A stretch of DNA of 64,000 nucleotides from Paludisphaera borealis (GTDB lineage: Bacteria; Planctomycetota; Planctomycetia; Isosphaerales; Isosphaeraceae): assembly GCF_001956985.1 (NCBI RefSeq), contig NZ_CP019082.1:2852001-2916000 (forward strand). Reading direction: 5' to 3'. Positions 48,069 to 50,755 of the stretch are shown piece by piece. The first letter of the stretch is position 1; each line of letters starts with the position of its first letter. A program made the position numbers and the translations under genes. The notes beneath the pieces were generated by a model, which saw only the letters and a list, made by a program, of their open reading frames with translations, was not told the DNA's origin and made no database searches.

Positions 48069-50453
48069 TTATTCGCGCGGCGCACCGAGCGACATGAGAA
48101 ACGCCTCGACCTGACGTTTGCGTCGCGTGCTGAGTCGCGAGAACCGGTCGGCTGATGACATCCCCTGGCCGCCGTGCAGGATCACCGCCTGGACGACCGT
48201 CTCGGCGCGGCCGTCGTGGAGGTAGGGCGCCGAGTCGCGGAGGCCCCAGAGCGGCGGCGTCCGCCATTCCCGCGCCCGCGTCTCGGATTCGCCGTCACGA
48301 TCGTCGACGCCCCTCTCGTCGACCGCCGCCCGGCTCGGGCCGGAGCCGAACACCGCGTAACCGCTGGAATCGCCGAGTTCCGTTCCCATGTCGTGAAGCA
48401 GCAAGTCGCTGTAGATTCCCTCGACGCCGCCCAGCCTCGGGAGGTGGCAGCTCGCGCAGCCGATCGACCGAAACGTCTTTTCCCCTTCCTTGACCATCGC
48501 CGCCTCTTTCGGGTCGGACGGCGCGGAGACCACCGGCGACGGCAAGCCCCGCACGAACGCGACCAGGGCGTGGCACTCGGTCCGGTCCATGTCCAGCCCC
48601 GCCGAAACGACGTCCAGGAGGCGAGGATCGCCGGCCTGGCGACGTCCGGGAACCTCCAGCCCCAACTCGCCGGCGGCGGCCGAGAGCACGAATTCCTCGA
48701 CGGTCGCCGTCTGGGCCTTCCAGCCGAATCGACCGATCCGCCCCCCCGCGACGCGGCTGATCCGCCCCCTGGTCTGCGAGCTTCCCGGACTCCTGCGCCT
48801 CGCGACCGCCACGATCGCCTCGTCGGGGATCTCGTCGATCAGACCGACGCCGAAAAGCGGAGTGGGATTGCGCTGCGACATCCGGACCTCGATCTGGCCG
48901 TGCCGCCCGGGAATCGCCCCTCGCCAGGCGCTGTAGCTCGGGTCGGTGCCGAAACGATGCAGCACGACGCTCCGCGCCTCCCGGAATCCCGGATGGATCG
49001 CCGCTGATGCGAGCGATGCTTGCGACGTCCGCCGCGCCCCGGCCGGAGGGTCGTAGCCGAAGCGGTACTCGAAGCCGCCTTCGCCGAAATTCATGCTGAA
49101 CGCATAGGAGAACCCCATGCCCGTTGACGGGTCCACGTCGGCCGTGGCGACGTCGATGTTCCTGCTCGAAGGGCCCGCGCCCCCCGTCCCGCCCTGGTCA
49201 TGACAATCGACGCAGGAACGGGCGTTGAAGACCGGCCCCAGGCCGTCGCCGCCGTGACTTCTCGGATCCTTCGGCGACCACATCCTTTCGAACAACTCCC
49301 GGCCGTCGGCCGCCAGGGCCGCCCTCAGCGAACTCAACGCCCGATCGGCGGCCTTGAGAATCGGTGCCGACGCCTCGTCGGTCGCACTCACCTCGCGGGG
49401 CTTGACGGTCGCGGAAGCCCTCGACCGGGCGACGATGGGATTCGTAGGCGTCGCATCGGCCGTAGTCGACTCCGAACTTCGCCGGGTTGGGCCCCCCAGG
49501 GAAATCGCCCGGCGCTCCTCGATCCTTCCGTCGGCCGGGGACTCCGAGTAGACGGGTGGTCGCGAGTTCCGGCTTCCCTCGGTCACGTCGCGACCGGCGA
49601 ACCACATGCCCCCGGCGGCCAGGCAGATCCCGATGACCCAGGTCGTCGAGATCGAGAGCGAGGAGTCGATCGTCGCGGCGAGATGCGAGACGGAAGGACT
49701 GACCGACCCACCGGCGCCGCCGTATTTCGCGCATCGGACGGCCGCCCACGCCGTCTCCTCGACCCATTCCGGTCGGACGGCGTCCGGCGACGCTTGCCGA
49801 GGCCCGAGGAGCGCCGCGAGCAAGCTGCAGGGTGCCGCGTCGCGTCGCGCGAGGGCCTCGCGGAGCCGTCGACGGCCCCGATGGAGGCGAGTCTGGACCG
49901 TTCCATAAGGCCAACCGAGCACCCGCGCCGCCTCCTCCTGCGTGTAGCCTTCAAAGTAGCAGAGGACGATCGGCAGGCGATACCGCTCCGGCAGCCGGCT
50001 CAGTTCCTCGTGCAGTTCCGGGTGGAACGGACGCTCCGCCGCCGACCAACGTTCCGTTCGCTGGGACGTCGCCTCGGCGTTCCGCTTCTCGGCCTTCCTG
50101 CGACGCGCCTCGGCGTCCCTCGCGCGGCGAGCCACGCGGAGCGAGACGCCGTGCAGCCACGAACCGAGCGCTTCCCTGCGACGGATCGAGGCCGCCTTGC
50201 GGGCGAGGACGAGGAAGACGGCCTGGGCGGCGTCCTGAGCCTCGTGATGATCGCCGAGAACGTCGCGGCAAACCCGCAGAACGGCCGGAGCGTGCCGTTC
50301 GACGATGCGTCGGAACGCCCCTTCGGCCGAGGCTTCGTCCCGCTCCAGAAACGCTTCCAGAAGCCTACGGTCCGCCGGCGGACCGGGCGACTCCAGGCCA
50401 AGAGCCTGCTCCTTCATGCCGGATTCGACTCCCGATCGCACAGGCGTCATCAT
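48069..50453 (-). CDS. ECF sigma factor fused through a membrane helix to a di-heme c-type oxidoreductase
   Basis: 794 residues from ATG 50453, with AAGGAG about 7 nt upstream. Residues about 30-90 form sigma region 2 (DAAQAVFLVLARKAA) and 150-200 sigma region 4 (TQEEAARVLGWPYGTVQTRL). A transmembrane helix follows at about 270-287 (STTWVIGICLAAGGMWFAG), then a disordered linker to about 360. Residues about 365-794 match the di-heme oxidoreductase (COG3488, thiol-oxidoreductase-like) family: heme motifs CVDCH (414-418) and CASCH (666-670), LLLHDMGTEL, and RTPPLWGLRDSAPYLHDGRA. The sigma part would be cytoplasmic and the heme part periplasmic, so redox state outside might control transcription inside. 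The two halves are one continuous frame. Confidence 0.92.
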   Translation of the reverse strand: MMTPVRSGVESGMKEQALGLESPGPPADRRLLEAFLERDEASAEGAFRRIVERHAPAVLRVCRDVLGDHHEAQDAAQAVFLVLARKAASIRRREALGSWLHGVSLRVARRARDAEARRRKAEKRNAEATSQRTERWSAAERPFHPELHEELSRLPERYRLPIVLCYFEGYTQEEAARVLGWPYGTVQTRLHRGRRRLREALARRDAAPCSLLAALLGPRQASPDAVRPEWVEETAWAAVRCAKYGGAGGSVSPSVSHLAATIDSSLSISTTWVIGICLAAGGMWFAGRDVTEGSRNSRPPVYSESPADGRIEERRAISLGGPTRRSSESTTADATPTNPIVARSRASATVKPREVSATDEASAPILKAADRALSSLRAALAADGRELFERMWSPKDPRSHGGDGLGPVFNARSCVDCHDQGGTGGAGPSSRNIDVATADVDPSTGMGFSYAFSMNFGEGGFEYRFGYDPPAGARRTSQASLASAAIHPGFREARSVVLHRFGTDPSYSAWRGAIPGRHGQIEVRMSQRNPTPLFGVGLIDEIPDEAIVAVARRRSPGSSQTRGRISRVAGGRIGRFGWKAQTATVEEFVLSAAAGELGLEVPGRRQAGDPRLLDVVSAGLDMDRTECHALVAFVRGLPSPVVSAPSDPKEAAMVKEGEKTFRSIGCASCHLPRLGGVEGIYSDLLLHDMGTELGDSSGYAVFGSGPSRAAVDERGVDDRDGESETRAREWRTPPLWGLRDSAPYLHDGRAETVVQAVILHGGQGMSSADRFSRLSTRRKRQVEAFLMSLGAPRE

Positions 50454-50755
50454 GGGCCGCTCCTTCCCTTGGCTTGGTCTCTCCTATCTAGTACCACCAA
50501 TAGCAAGTTTCCATTTCAAGATTCTTGATTTCGCGCAGCGGCGCTCGAGTTTTACCCCGCCTCCTGAACCGTTGTGGAGAATCCCCGATAGCATCCGGAA
50601 GCCGCAGCACGAGCTAATGGCAGAACAAACCGTCGAACGAGGGTCGTGTTGCCGTGGCGACGTGGTCAGGCGATAATCCGTCGGAGCGCCCAGGCCCGGT
50701 CCCCGGATTTCGCCCCGCGCGACCAGAGAGACCATTCAAGAGGAGCGACGCGCCG
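50454..50755. other. Divergent intergenic region
   Basis: 302 bp between the sigma-cytochrome gene and the AGE-family gene. A less GC-rich block at 50485-50535 lies 30-80 nt before the sigma-cytochrome start. No clear promoter hexamers. Confidence 0.35.

Follow-up and report, generated by a model that had tools for sequence, protein, structure and literature searches.

Sigma factors of the ECF class normally receive signals from outside the cell via a separate anti-sigma factor. ECF factors that are anchored in the membrane and carry outer domains form an already known kind, represented by ECF48/52/53, IutY and the extensions of ECF57 (PMC8999054). Release by proteolysis has been proposed for the membrane-anchored actinobacterial factors ECF48/52/53 and SCO4117, and IutY (ECF243) from Pseudomonas putida is cleaved by Prc and RseP (PMC8999054). 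The ECF57 factors, with an example from Singulisphaera acidiphila, contain paired conserved cysteines, one each in sigma2 and sigma4, and their C-terminal extensions are reviewed as WD40-like and associated with protein interaction (PMC8999054). The statement in the preliminary description of this locus that planctomycete ECF factors with C-terminal extensions are known agrees with the literature.

The window analysed here, a stretch of 64,000 nucleotides from Paludisphaera borealis, contains a gene for an ECF sigma factor joined across a membrane helix to a di-heme oxidoreductase (DHOR) domain. The encoded protein shares sigma2-sigma4, the paired conserved cysteines and a C-terminal extension with ECF57, the extension in this case being a membrane helix and a di-heme domain rather than a WD40-like module. 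Sigma factor, transmembrane helix and extracytoplasmic domain are common to this protein, ECF48/52/53 and SCO4117; however, in ECF48/52/53 a zinc-finger anti-sigma domain precedes the membrane helix, none was found here, and the sigma type and outer domain differ. IutY likewise combines a sigma factor and a membrane regulator in one protein, but its regulator is a fused anti-sigma factor and it is part of a cell-surface signalling system for iron starvation. On the enzyme side, DHOR, MauG, bacterial cytochrome c peroxidase and hydrazine synthase gamma share with the window protein two CxxCH motifs and Pfam and fold matches, while none of them carries an attached transcription factor. A text search of a limited literature gave no sigma-heme fusion, a scope too narrow to establish absence from the literature.

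Architecture of the sigma-DHOR protein

The features of the gene are given below in window coordinates, with residue numbers in brackets.

48069..50453, minus strand: sigma-DHOR fusion gene, 794 aa, stop codon included in the coordinates
50103..50306, minus strand: sigma region 2 (50-117), Pfam PF04542 Sigma70_r2, E 7e-9
50268..50270, minus strand: Cys62 codon, ECF57-type cysteine, C in 42/44 aligned relatives
49863..50018, minus strand: sigma region 4 (146-197), Pfam PF08281 Sigma70_r4_2, E 3e-17
49959..49961, minus strand: Cys165 codon, second ECF57-type cysteine, C in 41/44 aligned relatives
49722..49772, minus strand: juxtamembrane helix (228-244) with family-conserved T234 and A238, 37/44 relatives, pLDDT 85-96
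49596..49652, minus strand: transmembrane helix (268-286), from hydropathy in the window protein and all type-A proteins
49380..49592, minus strand: disordered linker (288-358), pLDDT <50, 13-20% identity between orthologues
48072..49331, minus strand: DHOR/COG3488 di-heme oxidoreductase domain (375-794), Pfam PF06537
49200..49214, minus strand: heme motif CVDCH (414-418)
48444..48458, minus strand: heme motif CASCH (666-670)

The preliminary description had proposed one uninterrupted frame encoding sigma regions 2 and 4, a single transmembrane helix at about 270-287, a disordered linker and a full COG3488-like domain with CxxCH at 414-418 and 666-670. The frame is indeed uninterrupted, and the strand, which had been left unstated, is minus: the plus-strand translation of 48069..50453 is interrupted by stops, and the open frame runs from 50453 down to 48069. 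A stop between the sigma and DHOR halves, which had been named as evidence against a fusion, was not found. The Shine-Dalgarno-like sequence AAGGAG lies closely 5' of the ATG, and GC3 is high across the sigma part, the linker and the DHOR part, indicating that the frame is coding throughout. The domain search recommended at that stage placed sigma regions 2 and 4 and the DHOR domain all above their Pfam cut-offs, and both heme motifs are at the positions first given.

The sigma half contains regions 2 and 4 without regions 1 and 3, as in ECF factors, and scored 71.6 bits against a cut-off of 42.9 for TIGR02937. Q77 and F80 of region 2 were kept in 44/44 relatives. The window protein is thus an ECF sigma factor by its domains, and binding to RNA polymerase is predicted from residue conservation. 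Both cysteines described for ECF57 (PMC8999054) are present, and through the pair Cys62/Cys165 the sigma half fits the ECF57 type of planctomycetes. This sigma type and its relatives by themselves point to a planctomycete, probably of the Isosphaeraceae. The WD40-like C-terminal extension that is prevalent in ECF57, where it is not a required feature, gave no match in the window protein or in 30 scanned paralogues. The zinc-finger anti-sigma domain (zf-HC2) had no match in the window protein either, the four matches in the genome all being elsewhere.

The best hydropathy window of the protein was 268-286 with a Kyte-Doolittle value of 1.52, which is weak taken alone; the type-A orthologues (see below) gave 1.87-2.07 at the matching position, and the AlphaFold model contains a helix at 253-286. 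Model confidence was high for sigma region 2 and the DHOR part, moderate for region 4, and under a pLDDT of 50 for residues 288-358, in keeping with the proposed linker. The attachment of c-type heme takes place outside the cytoplasm, and the window genome has three matches to cytochrome c assembly genes. The topology first suggested, with the sigma factor in the cytoplasm and the hemes outside, is indirectly supported by these two points, since a c-type heme attached there would place the N-terminus in and the C-terminus out. M50 site-2 proteases, which are near-universal in genomes, are present in the window genome.

The DHOR domain combines two CxxCH motifs with a PF06537 match (E 9e-28) of 97.4 bits against a curated cut-off of 22. 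Of 83 columns conserved in 27 free-standing DHORs, the window protein keeps all 83, while 79 are kept in all type-A and 80 in all type-B fusions (see below). Such retention speaks for a functional heme protein rather than a sensor in decay, so that the domain looks like a working heme enzyme for which heme binding is predicted. Among solved structures, hydrazine synthase gamma and cytochrome c peroxidase are nearest in sequence, and Foldseek matched the model of the window protein to ECF sigma factors on one side and to hydrazine synthase gamma, MauG and bacterial cytochrome c peroxidases on the other. A free DHOR gene in Azospirillum has imelysin, multicopper oxidase and DUF1513 genes as neighbours, which hints at metal-redox chemistry, this being weak evidence from a single distant context.

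Distribution and origin of the fusion

Orthologues were surveyed in 45 genomes of the same family. The homologue survey advised in the preliminary description revealed the same domain order in one frame in three other genomes, G028 (63% identity), G029 (62%) and G022 (51%), indicating that the window fusion is no artefact. Identity between orthologues of this architecture, called type A, was 57-75% in the sigma part, 57-70% in the DHOR part and 13-20% in the linker, so that the two domains are conserved to about the same degree and the linker is not. The fifth type-A genome, G001 (L095:3182-5612), has its sigma and DHOR halves in overlapping frames, and the frame changes close to a run of six C (CCCCCC) directly behind the helix, the likely site of a one-base error or slip. 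The split gene is immediately followed, at L095:5971-8550, by a further sigma-helix protein whose match to outer-membrane efflux is weak. Within the genus of the window genome, three further genomes (G030-G032) gave no full-length match to sigma-DHOR, showing that the gene is patchy. Around the type-A fusions we found no conserved gene neighbours, in line with a self-contained unit.

Six genomes (loci L097-L102 in G010, G014, G020, G009, G038 and G037) contain another architecture, type B, whose proteins measure 910-944 aa and extend about 100 residues further at the C-terminus. The type-B proteins group together (100/99) and away from type A, whether the tree is built on the DHOR or on the sigma part. 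The window genome, G028, G029 and G001 form one type-A clade in both trees; G022 falls outside this clade in both, yet has the type-A promoter motif. The separation in both trees indicates that the two types were fused separately, and by this sequence comparison the two sigma-DHOR lineages arose independently. In the nearest unfused DHORs (G039-G041) a signal peptide stands in place of the sigma domain and helix. Homologues with separate halves had been named in advance as evidence against the fusion. Free secreted DHORs do occur in some relatives; together with the overlapping frames of G001 they fit a recent fusion rather than a refutation.

No further sigma-DHOR fusion was seen in 392 genomes of the phylum with two candidates scored per genome, and ten DHOR loci from other families had no sigma domain in their DHOR frames. 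Long DHOR frames of about 900-1000 aa in other families were considered as fusions and rejected, since they carry no sigma domain. Selenocysteine was likewise rejected as a reading of in-frame TGA in distant DHOR matches, these being terminal stops where coordinates were compared (L151, L157). Some DHOR genes in other families of the phylum (L148, L149, L153, L157) are tandem pairs with overlapping open frames. A scan of public genome contigs for close relatives gave matches to the sigma part only, in Streptomyces and one Thermoguttaceae MAG.

Upstream footprints and the sigma-helix paralogues

The conserved promoter-like footprint found before the type-A genes is new in this analysis. The window copy is the following.

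50489..50519, minus strand: promoter-like footprint TTGAAATG-N16-GGTACTA, candidate -35/-10, ending 36 bp before the ATG

The pattern TTGAAATG-N15/16-GGNACTA precedes 5/5 type-A genes, in two cases with a single-base change, and starts 61-82 bp before the gene start. The five upstream regions can be aligned in this block only, the flanks not being conserved. The core pattern GAAATG-N14..18-GGNACTA has a single match in the 7.65 Mb of the window genome, before the sigma-DHOR gene, and a slightly looser pattern was at background over the 45 genomes except before the five genes. Allowing up to one mismatch, the five type-A genomes contain six matches, five of them before sigma-DHOR genes, in searches with near-exact patterns that degenerate targets would escape. 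The sixth is at G028 C2:2910075-2910105 (L144) and is a possible second target. Type-B genes have a related but different footprint, TTGAAATA-N15-CCCAGTA. Both blocks are candidate self-recognised ECF promoters, and the conservation and uniqueness of the upstream motif suggest autoregulation by the sigma half; another sigma factor could also read the type-A motif. A possible correlation of the -10 base (C or G) with sigma residue 98 was discarded, as it tracks the tree too closely to carry weight.

In the window genome 32 paralogues of the same sigma type were also read, 31 of which have a hydrophobic helix after region 4, with cysteines 62/165 conserved; the preliminary description had not noted this repertoire. 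About 30 are sigma-helix proteins whose outer extracytoplasmic domains differ from DHOR (G000 C1, L056-L091; e.g. L090:138-2519, L071:685-2445, L083, L091 and L064). The outer parts matched families including CarboxypepD_reg, DUF1559, trypsin-like and M16 peptidases, polysaccharide export/SLBB, HlyD, thioredoxin and AhpC/TSA, and some had no known match. Export and adhesion-like modules are thus among the outer domains, and polytopic versions were also observed. The HlyD and polysaccharide-export paralogues lie apparently outside transporter operons, as judged by eye from the neighbouring translations. In the limited literature searched, no tested function was found for any member of this repertoire. 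The -10-like sequence GCA[CG]TA precedes 9/32 paralogues against 0.8 expected, with 0/300 shuffles as high, in a test made after the motif had been seen enriched, and this hints at a family-wide autoregulation code. In these paralogues it sits about 107-150 bp upstream of the sigma domain. A strong enrichment of CTGTT before the paralogues was set aside, being mostly coding sequence at a fixed place.

Proposed control loop and alternatives

The best explanation, to which we give an even chance, is an anchored, self-inducing ECF sigma factor with a heme domain that senses a redox signal, handles it, or does both. An ECF57-type sigma half would be held at the cytoplasmic face of the membrane by one helix, with an intact di-heme enzyme domain like that of MauG and bacterial cytochrome c peroxidase outside. 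The heme domain would handle the signal, with peroxide or some other redox or metal-redox cue as the likeliest candidate, and the signal would free or activate the sigma half through proteolysis of the linker or helix or through a change of shape. The sigma half would then transcribe from the private promoter before its own gene, giving more sigma-DHOR protein. The architecture, the conservation of both halves, the repeated origin and the upstream motif are observed; in this scheme we infer the heme loading, the signal, the release step and the pairing of sigma factor and promoter. The preliminary description had suggested a one-protein redox or thiol sensor controlling transcription directly or by regulated proteolysis; its single polypeptide with sigma factor inside and di-heme domain outside is supported, and the sensing, the heme binding and the proteolysis stay at the level of proposals. 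The stricter version, in which the full control loop is contained in one polypeptide and the only target of the sigma factor is its own di-heme enzyme gene with its private promoter, is tentative and on the doubtful side. Free DHORs in relatives show that the enzyme can function unaided by a sigma factor, which counts against the main reading, as does the weak hydropathy of the helix in the window protein.

ECF factors in general control many genes, and the di-heme domain could be a pure sensor whose sigma factor acts through degenerate promoters, autoregulation being only a part. The sibling fusions of HlyD and polysaccharide-export type, which apparently stand alone outside transporter operons as expected for sensors, agree with this, but only one further motif match with up to one mismatch was found in the five genomes, and the DHOR positions are conserved as in the free enzymes and not relaxed. 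We consider this reading somewhat unlikely. It is improbable that the sigma-helix part has become chiefly an N-terminal anchor in place of a signal peptide, making the protein a membrane-bound DHOR with a small regulatory role for sigma. The nearest unfused DHORs do have a signal peptide where the fusion has the sigma-helix part, and this module is fused to many different domains; however, conservation of the sigma half equals or exceeds that of the enzyme half, down to the invariant Q77 and F80, and a private conserved promoter motif lies upstream. The overlapping frames in G001 would suit an annotation artefact, either two genes wrongly joined or two proteins made through internal initiation, but the single frame in three other genomes, the constant GC3 over the window gene and the lack of a conserved internal start make this very improbable, and the G001 break lies near the CCCCCC run after the helix, as expected from a one-base error or from slippage.

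For the anchored, self-inducing sigma factor, the private promoter motif makes the pairing directly testable, since each sigma factor can be tried against a short stretch of DNA with a reporter. Regulator, membrane link and redox enzyme are here united in one molecule, and the sigma-DHOR protein may be a redox enzyme on the outer side that governs its own synthesis.
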